The position numbers and the translations under genes are program-made. The notes under the pieces are model-generated. The model was not told where the DNA came from. It saw nothing but the letters and a program-made list of their open reading frames with translations, and searched no databases. DNA of 64,000 nt from Planktothricoides raciborskii GIHE-MW2 (GTDB lineage Bacteria; Cyanobacteriota; Cyanobacteriia; Cyanobacteriales; Laspinemataceae), in assembly GCF_040564635.1 (NCBI RefSeq), contig NZ_CP159837.1:1181001-1245000 (forward strand), in the 5' to 3' direction. Numbering within the stretch: position 1 is the first letter of the stretch; each line of letters opens with the position of its first letter. This document shows positions 2,221 to 44,249 of this stretch, piece by piece.

Positions 2221-2238
2221 CTTTACGAAAGCTTTAAA
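2221..2238 (-). promoter_or_regulatory. Conserved 18-bp PEP-CTERM upstream element, copy 1
   Basis: On the + strand it reads CTTTACGAAAGCTTTAAA, 131-148 bp before the ATG at 2090. The same 18-mer with only three variable positions recurs at 3681, 34445 and 34498, each time upstream of a PEP-CTERM gene. The two CTTTA half-sites are 11-12 bp apart in direct orientation, as expected for a response-regulator dimer. Further upstream (2361-2376) lies the palindrome TCCGTA-AAAA-TACGGA. Function is inferred from position and conservation only. Confidence 0.55.
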
Positions 2239-2529
2239 ATTCGCCAACGAGTTTTCAGGATTTTCTCGTTTAACCTTCCTTGGCGCTTCATATTACCTTT
2301 AAAAAACTATCTAAGTAACCCGCTTCTTTCACTTAGAAGCTATGATAAAAAATACCGTAATCCGTAAAAATACGGATATTTTATTTCAGGATTTTTACGG
2401 ATTGCGGATATTTTTGTCGGGAGAGAATTTACGGGATGCTCCAATCCGCAAATCTACGCAAATTAGATCATCTTTAAAGTAAAAAATTGCCAACAAAAAT
2501 AATTAAAATTGACGGTGACAAAATTTGCT

Positions 2530-2658
2530 TATAGCGGTTATTATCCCGATGAAGTACAGAGGTTTTCTGGATTCCCGGCGATGGCGGCGCGGGGGCAGGC
2601 CGCCATCGCCGGGAATGACAGGTTTTTTTTGCACTTCATAACTCTGACAAGTGCTGTA
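2530..2658 (+). repeat. MITE-like palindromic element, family A copy 1
   Basis: 129 bp with imperfect terminal inverted repeats (TATAGCGGTTAT... / ...GTGCTGTA). Inside are GAAGTACAGAGG and a 17-bp perfect GC-rich stem (arms at about 2571-2587 and 2600-2616) bounded by ATTCCC/GGGAAT, then a T8 run and GCACTTCATAACT. Two other copies are at 3755-3853 and 27331-27430. There is no transposase ORF. A 68-codon ORF running through it (2509-2715) is a by-product of the repeat. Confidence 0.75.
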
Positions 2659-2715
2659 AGCGATCGCAGAATTTGTCTAATTCATCGGCCACTCAGGACT
2701 GCCGCCGAAACATAA

Positions 2716-2748
2716 ACAGGGGTGGTGAGTATGACCCACCACCCCTGT
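2716..2748 (-). terminator. Hairpin downstream of second PEP-CTERM gene
   Basis: ACAGGGGTGGT at 2716-2726 pairs perfectly with ACCACCCCTGT at 2738-2748, about 150 bp beyond the stop of the minus-strand gene ending at 2897. There is no strong T-tract on the minus strand, so it may be a repeat-derived hairpin rather than a true terminator. Confidence 0.35.
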
Positions 2749-2896
2749 GAAGATGGAAAATTACCGAGGAAAAAACTCTGATTCGGCTTCGGCGATCGAG
2801 AGGAAGTTTCCTCGGAGTTAATTGTTTGTTTGTCAACGGAGAATTTCCCTGGTAAATACAGCAATACTACAGCACTAATACAGCACTAATACAGCA

Positions 2897-3568
2897 TTAA
2901 GCCGGTGTATTGTTGTTTTTTGAGGCAGAGTTTTTACGTCGCAGTAAGCCAGCCAAACCTACGGTCAAACCAATTCCCAGAGTGGTGGAGGGTTCTGGGA
3001 TAGTTGTTGGTACTGCCGCCAAAGTCATCTGATAAGTTGACGAGTTTCCGGTTTTACCACCAGCAAAATTGCCCACCGCAAGAGTTGTACCATTAAACAT
3101 TAATGAACCAGTAATAGCAGGGGCGGCAGATGTGGTGTTAAAGAAGTTATTTCCCCAACTCATGTAATTAGCGGCATCTAGGTTAAAGCTGAGATTGGCG
3201 GTGACTCCCTTAATCGTTTGCATACCGAAGTCGATGAATGAGGCGATCGGGTCGGTGGTGCAAGACTTCATCGACACACCAAACATACTTGGTGCGGATA
3301 TACAGCTAAATTCCAGGGTACTGATTTGCGGTTTAGAATTGTCCGCAAATGAGACGCCTAGGAAATCACCGAATTTATCGTTGAGGACATTTTGCGAAAA
3401 ATTCCAGATAAAACCGTTGCTAGTATTAGTAATGTTCAGGTTTCCGGACAGTCCCATGCTACCGGATAGTTGAATCGCTTGGGCTGGGGCAACGCTTACC
3501 ACAGTGGCGACGGTGACACTGGCGGCGATTAAGCTGGTTCTTAAATCTAGAGATGGTAAAGTTTTCAT
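2897..3568 (-). CDS. PEP-CTERM sorting domain protein (copy 2)
   Basis: 223 aa from the ATG at 3568. An upstream in-frame start would add 23 polar residues before the signal peptide, so the internal ATG, which aligns with the MKTL start of the paralogue at 1422-2090, is preferred. Signal peptide ends near AQA; the C-terminus has IPEPSTTLG, a hydrophobic helix and an RRK-containing basic tail, i.e. a PEP-CTERM signal. The body shares SGNLNI/SGDLDI, GFxWxFSxNVxNDKF and STYQMTLA blocks with copy 1, showing tandem duplication. Predicted to be exported and processed by an exosortase encoded elsewhere. The shared 18-bp element lies about 115-130 bp upstream. Confidence 0.87.
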   Translation of the reverse strand: MKTLPSLDLRTSLIAASVTVATVVSVAPAQAIQLSGSMGLSGNLNITNTSNGFIWNFSQNVLNDKFGDFLGVSFADNSKPQISTLEFSCISAPSMFGVSMKSCTTDPIASFIDFGMQTIKGVTANLSFNLDAANYMSWGNNFFNTTSAAPAITGSLMFNGTTLAVGNFAGGKTGNSSTYQMTLAAVPTTIPEPSTTLGIGLTVGLAGLLRRKNSASKNNNTPA

Positions 3569-3680
3569 CGTATTTTCTCGCTTCTGTGATGTTCTACTGC
3601 TGTGATTCAGAGGAATCCTCCGTGTTATTACGCACAATTCTAGTCGGATCTAGGCAGTAACCGCTATATATGCGGAGTAA

Positions 3681-3698
3681 CTTTACCAAATCTTTAAA
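3681..3698 (-). promoter_or_regulatory. Conserved 18-bp PEP-CTERM upstream element, copy 2
   Basis: CTTTACCAAATCTTTAAA, 113-130 bp before the ATG at 3568. Between it and the gene is a second block (about 3617-3650, TCCGTGTTATTACGCA ... GTCGGA) that resembles a block at about 2159-2193 before copy 1 and TCCGTAATTATACGCA at 34396-34411 before the third PEP-CTERM gene. The order 18-mer, then CCGT block, then gene is the same in all three. Confidence 0.55.
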
Positions 3699-3754
3699 TT
3701 TCCCCCACAAATTATTGCGGGTTTAGGGCAAGGCACTGGTTGTGACTTCATCAT

Positions 3755-3853
3755 TATAGCGGTTATTGTCCGAATGAAGTACAGAGGTTTTCTGGATTCC
3801 CGCGCGGGAATGACAGGTTTTTTTTGTACTTCATAACTATGACAATTGCTATA
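3755..3853 (+). repeat. MITE-like palindromic element, family A copy 2
   Basis: 99 bp, the shortest copy. It begins TATAGCGGTTATTGTCC and ends GACAATTGCTATA; the outer ~29 bp of the two ends are imperfect inverted repeats sharing TATAGC and ATGAAGTACA. The centre is the palindrome ATTCCCGCGCGGGAAT. It sits in the spacer between gnd and the second PEP-CTERM gene. Confidence 0.75.
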
Positions 3854-3931
3854 ATTAATAATTGCCAGGAATTGCCCGGACAAGGCAATAGTCCGGGCAA
3901 TTATTAACTCTAATTATTTACCTTATTTACC

Positions 3932-33294: not shown

Positions 33295-34140
33295 TCATGC
33301 TTTCCGCTTGCGAGCAGATTTCGCACCTAAAATCCCCAACCCAATTAAACCAAGAACCGTAGAAGGTTCAGGAACCGAGGCGACGGTGACATTAAATCTA
33401 TCTTCTGTCCCAAGTTCCTCACTACCATATACGCGGTTTAAAGCAGTCAGCCAATCATTTGTCGGGCCTTGAGTTAACCAACTAAATGGTTGGGCTGTGG
33501 TAATAAAATCTTCCACTTCAAATGGATTTTCATTACCATTATCATTACTTTGAATATCATAACCCCAAGTCCAACCCACTAACGGCTTGACGGAAAAGAA
33601 ATCATCTTGGGCTTTGTTGGGATCATCGCCAAACACTTCATCTAAGACTTCAACTAACCAAGTTTCAAACTTAGCCTCTGCACGACCACCAATAGATAAA
33701 ACATCAGGGAAAGAGGCGGTAGGCTGATCGAAGAAATAATTTTCCAAACCTGGTTCTGCATCGTAGTAAGGCAAGAAATCAATCAAACCAGGGGGCATCA
33801 TAAAATACCCACCGGGGGGAGGATCGAGCAAAGGTTTTTCAATCAACGTACCATCGTAAAATATGGTAGGGCCATCGGCTGATGTTATAGCACTAATAAA
33901 GCCATATTTGCCACTTTGATTGGGATTAAACATCGCGTCCATAATCACCGATCCGGCTCCAATATTAGGAAACTCTTCTAATGGATAACCGGCGCGCACT
34001 GTATACTCATTAATTGTTAAAACGCCCTGATTCAGAGTTTGGCAAGAAAATGCTCCATCCCAGCATACAGCGCTTGCCGCTTCTGGGAGAGCAAGGCTGG
34101 ACAACGCAGCGAAAAACAAGGGGTAAGTAATCTTTTTCAT
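33295..34140 (-). CDS. PEP-CTERM sorting domain protein (copy 3, unrelated body)
   Basis: 281 aa. Signal peptide MKKITYPLFFAALSSLAL ending about AASA; PEP-CTERM signal VPEPSTVLGLIGLGILGAKS followed by RKRK. Body is rich in Pro, Asp, Tyr and Trp (for example GYFMMPPGLIDFLPYYDAEP) with a likely Cys pair near the start (VCWDGAFSCQ). Not a paralogue of the two proteins near 2 kb, yet it shares with them the 18-bp upstream element. Predicted exosortase substrate, extracellular. Confidence 0.85.
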   Translation of the reverse strand: MKKITYPLFFAALSSLALPEAASAVCWDGAFSCQTLNQGVLTINEYTVRAGYPLEEFPNIGAGSVIMDAMFNPNQSGKYGFISAITSADGPTIFYDGTLIEKPLLDPPPGGYFMMPPGLIDFLPYYDAEPGLENYFFDQPTASFPDVLSIGGRAEAKFETWLVEVLDEVFGDDPNKAQDDFFSVKPLVGWTWGYDIQSNDNGNENPFEVEDFITTAQPFSWLTQGPTNDWLTALNRVYGSEELGTEDRFNVTVASVPEPSTVLGLIGLGILGAKSARKRKA

Positions 34141-35003
34141 AACCTTCTGATAGCTAACTTTACTTGATAATATCTAATTTGAACTGGATCTAATTTGAAC
34201 TGGCTCGATTTAATCGAGGGATTCCCTGTAAGGTAGGCAGAAAGAATTAGCCTTTTTACTCAGACTATTGCAGATTACCGCATACCAGCGGGATGGATTT
34301 AGCGATCTGGCTATATCTGTTCCAGATTCACTTCTCAAAGAGAAAAATACTGAAAGCATTTTTTTCGTTGAACCGCTAAATTTCACTTGGCTTTATCCGT
34401 AATTATACGCAGGTTTTAGAGAAAATACCAGGGGACGGCTTCAACTTTACAAAAGCTTTAAATTTTCCCGGTTGATTTCCCTGGGTTTCGCGGATTTCTT
34501 TACACAATCTTTAAAAGACTGAAGAGACCGCGTAAGGGTACTTAACGAAAAAGGCAATTCGAGATAACCCCGCCCGATCGCTGGATCGGGGAAAAAGGCC
34601 GTGGAGTTTGTGAGTCACTTTGACAAATCATCAGAATTCACAAATCATCAGAATATAGATGGGAAATAACCATCCAACAATTGTCATAATATGACAAAGT
34701 AATAACCCTAGTTAAGTTTTATAAAGAAATATAAATTTTTTTACCATAAAGTTACCAGAAGGAAACAACCAGAATCGACTAAATATTCATAAGCATCAAA
34801 CTTTTAAGATTGATTGGCTAAAATAGATTGTGTTCGGCTGAGTCCAGCTAACGGTTGAAATCAACCAACAATCTGATAGCGATCTATTGATTAATCGTGT
34901 ATCTATGACATTTCTGAACAAAACATGACCAATTTTGCCAAAAATCCCCAAAGGCGATCGCGCCTTTTGATTCAGTCACCATCGATTCACCGTGAGGAAA
35001 TAA
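34141..35003. other. Divergent regulatory spacer (863 bp)
   Basis: Holds two copies of the 18-bp element (34445-34462 and 34498-34515), the block TCCGTAATTATACGCA (34396-34411), a 7-bp-stem hairpin CCCGATC-GCTG-GATCGGG (34573-34590) and an AT-rich stretch before the alpha-2-macroglobulin gene. No gene seen. Confidence 0.5.
34445..34515 (-). promoter_or_regulatory. Doubled 18-bp PEP-CTERM upstream element, copies 3 and 4
   Basis: CTTTACAAAAGCTTTAAA at 34445-34462 and CTTTACACAATCTTTAAA at 34498-34515, 53 bp apart (five helical turns). They are about 305-375 bp from the PEP-CTERM start at 34140 and 490-560 bp from the divergent gene at 35004, so either could be controlled. Confidence 0.55.
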
Positions 35004-38000: not shown

Positions 38001-40838
38001 AAACTAGATAAAGATACTTATCAACCCGGTGAAATCGCCACCGCTGTTGTACAATCTCCCTATCCAGAGGCCGAATTATATTTTGCCGTGGTGCGAGATA
38101 AACCCATCTATAAAACTATCACCAAAGTAACCGGAGGGGCGCCGCAAATTCAGTTTACTGTCACCCCAGAAATGCTGCCCAATGCCGCAGTGCAAGCGGT
38201 GTTAGTCCGACAAGGTATTTCTCTGGATCAAGTGGAAGCGGGAACGGTGAAAGATTTGGTAAAAATTGGTTTTGCCCCATTTTCCACTAGCTTAGATGAG
38301 AAATATCTCCAGATAGAAGTGAAGCCAGATTTAGAGGCTGTTGAACCTGGGGCAGAACAAAGCCTCAAACTGACCGTTAAAGATGGGAAAAATCGGCCAG
38401 TTAAAGCACAAGTTTCCCTGATGGTGGTGAATGAGGATGTCCTGCAATTGACGGGATATCGTCCCCCGGATTTGGTGACAACAGTTTATGCCCAGCAATT
38501 AATTCCGACGCGGTTTACGGATAACCGATTTGCGGTGTCTTTGAAGGATATTATTTTTAATCAAAATGAGAATCCTCAATTGTCACCACGGGCTGCTACT
38601 CCAGGAGTGGGAGATGTATTTCTACAACAGGAGTCGGAAAAAAATCAGTCTGCCCCATTACCTGCAAATGCTCCTGCAGCAGGCCGATCGCAGACCCCAG
38701 AAGAACCGGCGCAAGCGATCAATATTCGCAAAGATTTTAAGCCCTTGGCTTATTACAATGGTGCCGTCATCACTGACAACAATGGTCACGCCACTGTTCG
38801 GTTTAAATTACCGGATAATTTAACCACTTGGCGAGTGATTGCGATCGCCGAAACCGAGGATATGCGGTTTGGCAAAGGAGAGAATACTTTTATCACCAAA
38901 AAACCGCTGATGGCCAATCCATTGCTACCCCAATTTGTCCGGGTGGGCGATCGCTTTTTTGCCGGTCTTGCGGTCACTAACAATACGGGCAAAAAAGGCA
39001 ATTTAGAAATAAATGGCCAAGTGGCGGAAAATATGCAGTTTGCGGAAAATGCCAGCAGTACCCAACAATTAAGCACTCAAGCCAAACCGGATACAACTGG
39101 CTATCGTTTCCCGATCGCAGCCCAAGACATTGGGGTAGGAAAGATAAAATTTACCGCCCAATTAAACAAGCGGGACGGCGATGGTTTCGAGGTATCTCTG
39201 CCGGTGAAAAAACTGGCAGTTACAGAACAGGTGATTTCTACTGGAGTCACAGAAAATCAGGTCAAAATTCCCTTAAATGTGAATCAGAATGTAGCGCCCA
39301 ATGTGGGAGGTTTAGAAGTTTCTCTGGCTTCTACCTTAATCCCCGAAATTACTGCCCCAGCGCGGCAAGTATTTGAAGAAAATCGCTTGCCATTCTTGGA
39401 ACCGGCAGCCTCTCAGTTAGCGATCGCTGCTAACCTGCAAATTTTAGGGCAAAAATATGGTCAAGCTTTTGGGGAATTTAACCCCACAGCCCAGGCAGAA
39501 ATTGCCTTAAAACAACTCCAAGAACTTCAGCAGTCTGATGGCGGTTTTGCCTCATGGCCAAAACAATACCAATCCGATCCATTTGTCACCCCCTACGCGG
39601 CGGAAAGTTTAGCCAAAGCGTTGGCTGCTGACTTTAAGGTAGATCCGGGGATGGTTTCTCAGGTAAAACTGTATTTGCAGCGTCTCTTAGAAAACCCGCA
39701 ACAATATGATTATTGCCAGACAGAAATCTGTCAAAATCAGTTGCGACTATCCGCACTGATGGCTTTAGCCGAATTAGGAGATAAACGGGATAGTTTTTTA
39801 GGGGATATCTATAAACAGCGAGAAGAATTAGACCAGTTATCTCAGCTTAAATTGACCCGCTATTTATTTAGCTTCCCGCAGTGGCAAGATGAGGCAAAAA
39901 CTCTGTTCGATCGCTTCCAGGAAACAGTTTATGAAACTGGGCGATCGGCCACAGTCAATTTACCGCGAGGCTGGTATTGGCTGAGTACCCCGACCACTCA
40001 ACAGGCGGAAACTTTACGGCTATTTATTGCCCAAAAAGCTAAACCAGAAGTGAGCGATCGCCTCTTACAAGGGCTATTAAATTTGCGGCGAAATGGCACC
40101 TGGCAAAATAGTTATGCCAACGCTTCTGCCCTGACTGCATTAGTGGCTTATGCCAACACTCAACCCACCCCACCGAACTTTACCGCCACGGTAAAATTAG
40201 CCGGGGAAAATATCGACTCGATGCAGTTTCAAGGCTACGAAAATCCCAGTCGATTTATTAATGTAGCAATGGATCAATTACCCCAGGGAAATGCTGACTT
40301 AACCTTAGAAAAATCAGGGGCAGGTAGCCTACATTATTTAACCGCCTATAGCTATCGCTTATTAGGCAATGCCCCCGGACGATTTAACGGCTTGCGCGTT
40401 GACCGAAAAGTTCGCCTTGCCGGGGAAGATCAAGTGCTGGCAACAATGGGGTTATCTGCCTTAAATCAACCCGTAACCGTAGAGGTTGGACAAGTGTTTG
40501 ATATTGGGTTGGAAATTATTACTGACCACCCCATCGATCATCTGGTGATTACTGACCAATTACCCGCCGGTTTTGAGGCAGTAGATACCACTTTTCAAAT
40601 CACGAATCCGGCAGTTCAAGCCCAAGTTGATAGCTGGGAAATTGGTTATCAAACCATTTACGCAGACGAAGTGGTTGCTTATGGCGATCGCCTCAATGCC
40701 GGGGTCTATAATCTGCATTATTTAGTGCGGTCTGTAACCCCTGGAACCTTTGAATGGCCTGGGGCAGAAGTGCATCTAAAATATGCCCCAGAAGAGTTTG
40801 GGCGATCGGCCACGGCTACTTTGGCAGTGAAAGAATAA
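35004..40838 (+). CDS. Bacterial alpha-2-macroglobulin-like lipoprotein
   Basis: 1944 aa. Lipoprotein signal with lipobox GLFTC (Cys28). Then many MG (macroglobulin) beta-domains; recognisable points are the Ig-like N-terminal repeats, the bait-region side segment YQRGEKASFTSLAAYLQ, the ANG/A2M domain AYYNGAVITDNNGHATVRF-KLPDNLTTWR, the RVGDRFFAGLAVTNNTG block, the alpha/alpha toroid around residues 1480-1700, and an MG10-like receptor-binding end. Family members trap foreign proteases in the periplasm. The thioester CxEQ motif expected at the start of the toroid is absent: the corresponding place reads VFEENRLPFLEPAASQLAIA. So it cannot use the covalent trap. No pbpC neighbour, unlike E. coli yfhM. 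Confidence 0.9.
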   Translation: MRIKIKTWMKTWIHFLLGLLLAFGLFTCQTTNMTTNFSQAVETLPQVAPLPKPQIPDWIEQISPTEEAEPLAQIRIRFKDPVIPLESLDSPEQQIKLNLFQIQPALPGRFRFLTPRMVGFQADEPLPKATRIQVTVKAGLADLNNHRLTQDLAWTFTTDPIQITNLPETNPNPYSSGYLDIKPNLEITSNVQLDLNSLANNATLISEANQEKISLKAEQTTAENQQPYPIFLANGSTDPFNLINRQWQYQLIPQQELQKNTRYRLELDPGIRPIRGNLVSDKAFTSQVATYAPLKFEKIETNRGWGSRFDQGISGLRFNNPLNADSALENIRFSPPPNPDIPLLEIYEGNNYVGVNSWALEPETNYTITIGENLKDTFGQTLGNSLTIQHKTGNLLANIFTRTGLNIFPKGAKANFKISTVNLPELNYKAAYKVVQPTDLVYRNNSEEFLPSSNTWKKFDISGKKNQITQTEVALEQELKAPTGMVAYGVQAKTVPYSENNQQKWQEPTYYGFAQITNLGVFTQLFPKSGLIRVNHLSDGAPVAAATIEIYQSKLNETPRPEPKPCATGITDQTGTFILNNQQLKQCIPNNEPPELLVIARENQDWAYARCDRDSGSYGYGIYPEWDYGQIQPRGTIFSDRNLYQRGEKASFTSLAAYLQNSQLKLDKNSQYTVTLSQPNGTQKNLGNFTTNEFGTFSFDWAIEPDSPLGDYYLSADGKNGNVLSGYVRVAEFKPPNFQVDLKLDKEIAISQQTIEAKAEGQYLFGSPLAAGQLKYYVTRSQANFTPKGWEEFAFGQQWFWPENPPSIDAEVLQNYAELDPQGLGTFTFKIGNDLPYPMTYQVSAEVSDSSNQAVAASQSVIALPSDRLIGLKSDFAAEVDKDFTVEMIATDATGKVLKGERIRLQLQKVDYKPMPRSMSETWPKYKLEYTTVAEKQITSGGQAEKISLQAKEAGYYRIRANFANAKDEVMATDLSIWISGKNPVFWGYPGEQENALEVKLDKDTYQPGEIATAVVQSPYPEAELYFAVVRDKPIYKTITKVTGGAPQIQFTVTPEMLPNAAVQAVLVRQGISLDQVEAGTVKDLVKIGFAPFSTSLDEKYLQIEVKPDLEAVEPGAEQSLKLTVKDGKNRPVKAQVSLMVVNEDVLQLTGYRPPDLVTTVYAQQLIPTRFTDNRFAVSLKDIIFNQNENPQLSPRAATPGVGDVFLQQESEKNQSAPLPANAPAAGRSQTPEEPAQAINIRKDFKPLAYYNGAVITDNNGHATVRFKLPDNLTTWRVIAIAETEDMRFGKGENTFITKKPLMANPLLPQFVRVGDRFFAGLAVTNNTGKKGNLEINGQVAENMQFAENASSTQQLSTQAKPDTTGYRFPIAAQDIGVGKIKFTAQLNKRDGDGFEVSLPVKKLAVTEQVISTGVTENQVKIPLNVNQNVAPNVGGLEVSLASTLIPEITAPARQVFEENRLPFLEPAASQLAIAANLQILGQKYGQAFGEFNPTAQAEIALKQLQELQQSDGGFASWPKQYQSDPFVTPYAAESLAKALAADFKVDPGMVSQVKLYLQRLLENPQQYDYCQTEICQNQLRLSALMALAELGDKRDSFLGDIYKQREELDQLSQLKLTRYLFSFPQWQDEAKTLFDRFQETVYETGRSATVNLPRGWYWLSTPTTQQAETLRLFIAQKAKPEVSDRLLQGLLNLRRNGTWQNSYANASALTALVAYANTQPTPPNFTATVKLAGENIDSMQFQGYENPSRFINVAMDQLPQGNADLTLEKSGAGSLHYLTAYSYRLLGNAPGRFNGLRVDRKVRLAGEDQVLATMGLSALNQPVTVEVGQVFDIGLEIITDHPIDHLVITDQLPAGFEAVDTTFQITNPAVQAQVDSWEIGYQTIYADEVVAYGDRLNAGVYNLHYLVRSVTPGTFEWPGAEVHLKYAPEEFGRSATATLAVKE

Positions 40839-43562: not shown

Positions 43563-44249
43563 ATGACCCAAAAGCTTTTACTGGTGGATGATGAGCCCGG
43601 TTTACGAGAGGCAGTACAAGCCTACTTGGAAGATAGTGGCTTTGAGGTGAATGTTGCGCCAAATGCTCAACAGGGCTGGCAATTGTTGGAAAAGACTCTA
43701 CCGGATTTGGTGATTACGGATGTGATGATGCCCCAGGTAGATGGGTATCAGTTTCTTAAGCAGATGCGGGAGGATCCCCGGTTTAAGGCGCTGCCAGTGG
43801 TGTTTTTGACCGCTAGGGGGATGACCAGCGATCGCATTCTGGGGTATCAAGCGGGTTGTGATGTGTATATTTCCAAACCTTTTGACCCGGATGAATTGGT
43901 GGCGATCGTGCAAAATTTGCTGCAACGGCGGGCGGCGCAAAATAGTGAAGATGGGGATGAAGCGGGGATGGCGGATTTAGTCCGTCAAATTGCAGAAATT
44001 AAGGCGTTGCTAACAGGAAATACGGGAATTGTTCAGACTCCCGCACCGATTAAAGTCGATTTAACTCCCAGAGAACAAAGTGTTTTAGATTTAGTAGCCC
44101 AAGGATTAATGAATAAAGAAATTGCCCGTCGTTTAGACACCAGTGTGCGGAATGTAGAAAAGTATGTGAGTCGCTTATTTAGCAAGACCGGCACCAACAG
44201 CCGCACTGAATTAGTGCGCTATGCTTTGGAACATGGATTAACGAAGTAA
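43563..44249 (+). CDS. NarL/LuxR-type response regulator, Rre1/Ycf29-like
   Basis: 228 aa. Receiver domain (1-120) with acidic pocket DDE (9-11), phospho-acceptor Asp53 in DLVITDVMMP, Thr in VFLTARGM and Lys in ISKPFDPDE. Linker about 125-160, then a LuxR-type HTH (LTPREQSVLDLVAQGLMNKE ... VSRLFSKTGTNSRTELVRYA). The long conserved receiver matches cyanobacterial Rre1 (Ycf29), the partner of Hik2 in stress and redox signalling. No kinase gene nearby. ATG with GGGGG-rich ribosome site. Followed by a terminator. Confidence 0.85.
   Translation: MTQKLLLVDDEPGLREAVQAYLEDSGFEVNVAPNAQQGWQLLEKTLPDLVITDVMMPQVDGYQFLKQMREDPRFKALPVVFLTARGMTSDRILGYQAGCDVYISKPFDPDELVAIVQNLLQRRAAQNSEDGDEAGMADLVRQIAEIKALLTGNTGIVQTPAPIKVDLTPREQSVLDLVAQGLMNKEIARRLDTSVRNVEKYVSRLFSKTGTNSRTELVRYALEHGLTK

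Follow-up and report, generated by a model that had tools for sequence, protein, structure and literature searches.

A direct-repeat element upstream of cyanobacterial PEP-CTERM and exopolysaccharide genes is a candidate activator site of OmpR-like form

PEP-CTERM genes of proteobacteria are controlled by PrsK/PrsR together with RpoN, acting at sigma-54 promoters, and response regulators of the PhoB/SphR type bind the Pho box, in which tandem half-sites (CTTAACCT) recur with an 11-bp period. Cyanobacteria encode many PEP-CTERM proteins. In Nostoc punctiforme, five PEP-CTERM genes with joint induction in hormogonia have no J-Box, and their regulation is taken to be indirect (PMC12188702, in excerpt). 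The J-Box itself is the extended -10 signal of SigJ in that species, GGGaAtacT, and promoters of strongly induced genes in hormogonium clusters 10 and 11 of Nostoc contain an unnamed second motif (PMC6495340, in excerpt). A further cyanobacterial signal, HLR1, consists of two copies of (G/T)TTACA(T/A)(T/A) with 2 nt between them and is bound by RpaB; DNA of the HLR1 region at about -45 to -60 is essential at the atpT promoter, and in Synechocystis the -35 is missing from most promoters (PMC9241938, in excerpt).

We analysed a window of 64,000 nt (genome positions 1,181,001–1,245,000) from Planktothricoides raciborskii GIHE-MW2, whose genome is a single contig of 7,215,835 bp; positions below are those of the window unless marked otherwise. 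Three genes, all on the minus strand, encode proteins with a C-terminal PEP-CTERM sorting signal above the curated cut-off: gene 1 at 1422–2090 (222 aa; TIGR04155, 45.5 bits, cut-off 21.6), gene 2 at 2897–3568 (PF07589, 22.6 bits, cut-off 20.7) and gene 3 at 33295–34140 (281 aa; PF07589, 31.7 bits, cut-off 20.7). We start gene 2 at the ATG at 3568; an alternative TTG at 3637 would precede the predicted transcription start. The original prediction placed an 18-bp element at four sites upstream of these genes, said to be the only PEP-CTERM genes in the window, and a regular-expression search of the 43 window ORFs confirmed this. All four elements are present as exact matches on the minus strand: that of gene 1 (TTTAAAGCTTTCGTAAAG) at 2221–2238, that of gene 2 (TTTAAAGATTTGGTAAAG) at 3681–3698, and for gene 3 a promoter-proximal element (TTTAAAGCTTTTGTAAAG) at 34445–34462 and a distal one (TTTAAAGATTGTGTAAAG) at 34498–34515, 53 bp further upstream. 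They are the only exact matches on either strand of the whole 64,000-nt window; a fifth place, 38247–38264 (minus strand), differs from the element by three mismatches. The protein bodies had been called unrelated, which holds for gene 3. Genes 1 and 2, at 56% identity, are paralogues, and their promoters are 81% alike across 37 bp around the element, so that the sites of these two genes are not independent.

On the plus strand the element reads CTTTAC-N5-CTTTAAA, and in the direction of the genes TTTAAAG-N-TT-NN-GTAAAG. Its half-sites had been described as direct repeats 11–12 bp apart, suiting a two-component regulator; the measured period is 11 bp, and two head-to-tail half-sites with a period of 10–11 bp are the arrangement characteristic of OmpR/PhoB-type sites. 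Among 108 non-redundant sites, most of whose columns were fixed beforehand by the search pattern, conservation beyond the element is slight (W before it, WT after it), and these flanks extend the half-site to (T/G)TAAAG-W-TT at the 11-bp period. When the spacer between the half-sites was allowed to vary from one to nine bases, 35 of the 150 matches listed from relatives had a five-base spacer, 23 of these 35 with AA; spacers of three and six bases were also raised, with 24 and 29 among the 150 matches listed. With this loose pattern the backward control was as common as the pattern or commoner (18 versus 11 in the genome itself), and so makes an imperfect null; the Markov estimate used below does not depend on that control.

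The exact element occurs nine times in the genome, against 0.052 copies expected on both strands under a third-order Markov model trained on 254,010 bp of DNA from the same genome, and five of the nine copies come from outside the window in which the pattern was first noticed. The backward pattern has no exact copy, and at up to one mismatch it is found twice versus 19 times for the element. The four window elements are thus real and no product of chance. Five of the nine exact sites stand in sense before four of the 14 PEP-CTERM genes that were identified with a profile built from 12 of the 14. Exact sites are also present upstream of a HetP-like gene and of a gene for a histidine kinase. The one at genome position 3,195,603 is in reverse orientation, upstream of a PEP-CTERM gene at a distance of about 500 bp, and adjoins what by eye is a terminator-like hairpin; we count this site as doubtful. 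Five of the ten one-mismatch sites lie within or overlap ORFs (L012, L014–L017) and look like chance matches. The remainder comprise one that overlaps the exact site at 3,195,603, one in sense before a PEP-CTERM gene, one reversed site that is upstream of a PEP-CTERM gene by about 280 bp, and a pair with a 53-bp spacing that precedes a WecG-type gene.

Five of the 14 PEP-CTERM genes therefore have a sense site with no more than one mismatch, four of them exact and one with a single mismatch, and two more have reversed sites; the nine genes without a sense site, these two included, have no 0–1-mismatch match in that orientation within 700 bp (633 bp were searched for one of them). The three exosortase genes all lack a 0–1-mismatch site nearby, both in their loci and in the genome-wide list. 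The original prediction of an exosortase-substrate regulon signal thus holds in part: a genome scan shows enrichment at PEP-CTERM genes, and it also returns the HetP-like and kinase genes and no exosortase gene. Specificity for exosortase substrates did not survive, and we rejected a regulon confined to the exosortase system on the three site-free exosortase genes, the five of 14 PEP-CTERM genes and the presence of other target classes. Locus L176 carries a PEP-CTERM gene (2533–3276 of the locus) directly upstream of an exosortase gene (1456–2307), and both are without a 0–1-mismatch element.

The HetP-like gene, as we presume it to be, lies at genome positions 5,527,151–5,527,516 (L027:10152–10517), has no Pfam match and belongs to a genus that is probably non-heterocystous. 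Two exact elements on opposite strands, 53 bp apart, are found upstream of it, both here and in the sister species. At 5,532,968–5,534,260 (L027:15969–17261) lies a gene for a GAF histidine kinase, preceded in both species by an exact element about 410 bp upstream, and this kinase is a possible member of the regulatory circuit; the stretch examined contains no response regulator gene beside it.

The element extends well beyond this genome. Searched by exact match, 92 of 194 genomes of the order contain it, with a sum of 208 sites against eight for the backward control; within a set of 39 genomes the figures are 25 genomes and 58 sites against one, with nine sites in the genome studied here and ten in the sister species. 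Thirteen of 26 named genomes have the site, led by Planktothricoides SR001 (nine), Okeania SIO2F4 (seven) and Argonema (three), followed by Limnofasciculus, Trichocoleus FACHB-40, Coleofasciculus LEGE 07092 and Oscillatoria HE19RPO with two each and six others with one each. Exact sites are absent from three Planktothrix genomes, and the Nostoc- and Calothrix-type genomes tested have none or one each. In the sister species, as the proposed conservation in orthologous promoters would have it, the elements of genes 1 and 3 are retained: the gene 1 promoter keeps an unchanged element and its -10, and upstream of gene 3 the two elements are still 53 bp apart across diverged intervening DNA, the proximal one unchanged and the distal one altered at a single base. 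As evidence against an activator site, two other tandem paralogues of gene 1 in that species are without the element (three mismatches at best).

We gathered 140 distinct exact sites (nine of them from the genome itself), a part of those present in the 194 genomes, and assigned them to genes with a simple longest-ORF script. Five lie inside ORFs, 100 have a sense gene within 800 bp and 35 fall into neither group; the pattern is thus not equally frequent inside genes or at unrelated genes, the outcome that would have spoken against a regulatory signal. Among sense targets in relatives, the sister species included, 20 of 92 are PEP-CTERM proteins versus three of 67 control ORFs from the same loci, with PEP-CTERM status assigned by regular expression, 21 of the 92 targets truncated where the locus ends and so not scorable, and orthologues in related genomes counted repeatedly. 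For protein comparison we used 94 of 100 target references, after dropping one duplicate of gene 3, two references to one short ORF of L087 (its homologue in L086 was kept), L027:10944–11195, L055:972–1256 and L164:2239–2973. Pfam assigns glycosyltransferase family 2 to nine of the 94, TPR to up to seven and PEP-CTERM to seven; neither PEP-CTERM nor glycosyltransferase family 2 is among the 25 most frequent families of the 67 controls, a list that extends down to families of two members.

Other target classes in relatives are HpsE, sugar transferases, proteins of calcium-binding type and receiver-domain proteins. Individual targets include three HpsE equivalogs (three of ten target proteins scanned), a WecG protein, DUF4347 and nidogen-like proteins, a phosphodiesterase-family protein, one single receiver protein and two receiver/DUF4388 proteins, the genes for the last of which might be part of phototaxis and motility operons. 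A general signal of hormogonium polysaccharide genes was considered and rejected: among the best 80 of 281 hpsE-related loci only one shows an exact match in the 900 bp upstream; this locus is on the contig that supplied the first query. Sites with two mismatches at hpsE-related loci (best 80 of 281, named genomes) number five versus one for the backward control. In three related genomes (L154, L155 and L157), a conserved divergent gene of unassigned function, whose product begins MPKDAPQTS or MSQDAPQID, has a site about 205 bp upstream of it; a receiver-domain gene is found elsewhere in the locus.

In the window, -10 hexamers on the minus strand are found at 2177–2182 (TATATT, gene 1), 3637–3642 (TAGAAT, gene 2) and 34402–34407 (TATAAT, gene 3), at offsets of 56, 56 and 55 from the start of the element, the proximal one in the case of gene 3, and the predicted transcription starts would lie near 2170, 3630 and 34395. 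A conserved 'second block' had been noted between element and gene; it is real and is this -10 region, at offset 55–56 in all three window promoters. A -10-like hexamer thus occupies the fixed place at three of the four window sites and at four of the five PEP-CTERM genes with a sense site; among the sites that have none is the exact site before the PEP-CTERM gene near genome position 1,703,400. Across 77 non-redundant sense sites, 40 have a -10-like hexamer at offsets 54–58, a bin picked after the profile had been viewed and scored with self-chosen weights, and every other 5-bp bin holds 6–16. Among antisense or gene-less sites the count is three of 29. In 1000 dinucleotide shuffles, offsets 54–58 gave a mean of 10.8 and a maximum of 19, and the largest value of any bin was 25. 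The 77 sense sites show no conserved TTGACA-like -35. This geometry places the element at about -67 to -50.

Exact sites tend to have company. Within 200 bp of them we found 37 near-sites with up to three mismatches, 21 on the same strand and 16 on the opposite one, against four for the backward control, which was counted on one strand only versus both for the 37. For near-sites no more than 60 bp away, the 24 distances fall preferentially at multiples of a 10.5-bp turn (simulated p = 0.0002; with the period scanned, 0.0004), in sequences that are partly related. Such phasing fits proteins that would cooperate on one face of the DNA. At a locus from a relative (L085:1501–1570), about six GTAAAG/GTGAAG half-sites follow each other head to tail in 11-bp steps upstream of a gene for a long secreted protein; this run looks like an extended array.

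We consider it likely that the element is a transcription activator site of OmpR-like form, at about -67 to -50, and that its regulon consists mainly of surface and exopolysaccharide genes. The form of two half-sites (T/G)TAAAG-W-TT, head to tail at 11 bp, is that recognised by response regulators of the OmpR/PhoB class. A putative activator bound there would assist RNA polymerase at promoters of the sigma-70 type, with a -10 hexamer and no conserved -35. Its regulon would comprise PEP-CTERM proteins, glycosyltransferases, WecG-type genes and surface proteins of calcium-binding type, and in some relatives also receiver and receiver/DUF4388 genes, perhaps of motility signalling operons. We infer activation rather than repression, an OmpR-class binder and the motility link from the site and its targets: it is the head-to-tail half-sites at 11 bp, the constant spacing from a -10 in promoters lacking a -35, and the phased further sites that together argue for an activator. 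Several observations count against it. The 37 of 77 sense sites without a -10-like hexamer at the fixed place are one; the 35 of 140 sites with no sense gene within 800 bp, or with a blocked one, are another, and they suggest that some sites work in the opposite orientation or have no activity. By eye, some targets are housekeeping-like (for example L080/L081 and L172/L173), and an autoregulated OmpR gene, which we had considered, is not supported: none of the 16 OmpR-type loci of the genome (genes with a Trans_reg_C domain) has a 0–1-mismatch site.

A comparison of OmpR-type proteins across four genomes left two candidates, L187 and L189, with reciprocal best hits in three site-bearing genomes and none in Planktothrix. 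L189, which we take to be RppA-like, occurs in 184 of 194 genomes and so does not discriminate. A search for regulators beside sites, made with OmpR-type profiles and one LuxR-type profile matched single receiver, receiver/DUF4388 or unannotated proteins, and it also matched the LuxR-type gene of the window at 43563–44249 and L032:5534–6694.

Several other readings of the element deserve weighing against an activator site. The genome encodes a regulator, L181, that we take to be RpaB-like, and its presence would suit an HLR1 variant bound by this light/redox response regulator. HLR1 and RpaB indeed appear to be the closest published parallel that we found: HLR1 is likewise an AT-rich direct repeat upstream of promoters, read by the OmpR-type RpaB and essential at -45 to -60 in one promoter, and its TTACA core resembles the TTTAC of the element (PMC9241938). 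The match fails in detail, however, in that the period is 11 bp in the element versus 10 bp in HLR1 and neither CTTTAC nor CTTTAAA supplies the fixed TTACA of the second HLR1 half, and we rejected identity with HLR1 on this spacing and second half-site (definition from the excerpted text of PMC9241938). The element is also patchy across lineages, whereas the RpaB-like protein is present even in a site-free genome, that of Planktothrix rubescens, at 93% identity yet with no exact site. An HLR1 variant is therefore unlikely. A repressor site or a mixed role, exerted from upstream through looping or cooperative arrays, would account for the reversed and paired copies; the element is upstream of the -35 region by roughly a turn or more, and no -35 is conserved. 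Both points favour activation, and we regard repression as quite unlikely.

The fixed spacing to the -10-like hexamer could in principle place the element within the core promoter recognised by an alternative sigma factor. The 36–40 bp from the end of the element to the hexamer are too many for a -35, however, the hexamer is of the sigma-70 type, near-sites occur at further helical turns and some copies are reversed, all of which make this highly improbable. The SigJ J-Box, GGGaAtacT, is absent at the three window -10 regions; like the element it serves, in filamentous cyanobacteria, as a promoter signal for surface and motility genes, but it sits at the -10 and not 36–40 bp upstream of it, and we rejected identity with it because none of the three window promoters has GGG ahead of its hexamer (definition from the excerpted text of PMC6495340). 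The likeness of the promoters of genes 1 and 2, which are paralogues, might reflect nothing more than ancestry through gene duplication, with no role in regulation. Against this, the products of gene 3 and of most targets in relatives are unrelated, and conservation across the 108 non-redundant sites is limited to the element and one to three flanking bases, so that duplication is an extremely improbable account. The Pho box shares tandem half-sites and the 11-bp period; its half-sites are of the CTTAACCT type and not CTTTAC and CTTTAAA, for which reason we rejected it, and the targets seen are not phosphate genes. PrsK/PrsR resembles the proposed activator in the control of PEP-CTERM genes and differs in its promoters, which are sigma-54 there and have a sigma-70-type -10 in the window.

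We found no published description of the element in the literature on its sequence, on PEP-CTERM promoters and on HLR1, within the excerpted texts; the second hormogonium motif in PMC6495340, known by mention only, may or may not be the same as the element. Judged by its form and setting, the element would belong with activator sites of the response-regulator kind, and its set of targets is unusual and useful. We offer as a tentative and broader reading, one we hold with less than even confidence, a previously undescribed two-component regulon that might couple PEP-CTERM display to exopolysaccharide synthesis and motility signalling through helically phased direct-repeat sites and an orphan OmpR-type binder, lost or re-tuned in Planktothrix and in most Nostoc-type genomes tested. 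The element lets candidate targets be listed in any genome from its sequence alone, and allows a test for joint switching of surface proteins, exopolysaccharide and perhaps motility; the defined site and predicted starts provide a handle for fishing out the regulator.

Upstream of genes 1 and 2 we also observed two copies of an interspersed repeat of about 100–130 bp, at 2529–2659 and 3754–3854. Their flanking blocks of 49 and 50 nt are 92–94% identical and their inner part varies in length; the repeat resembles a small mobile or palindromic repeat.
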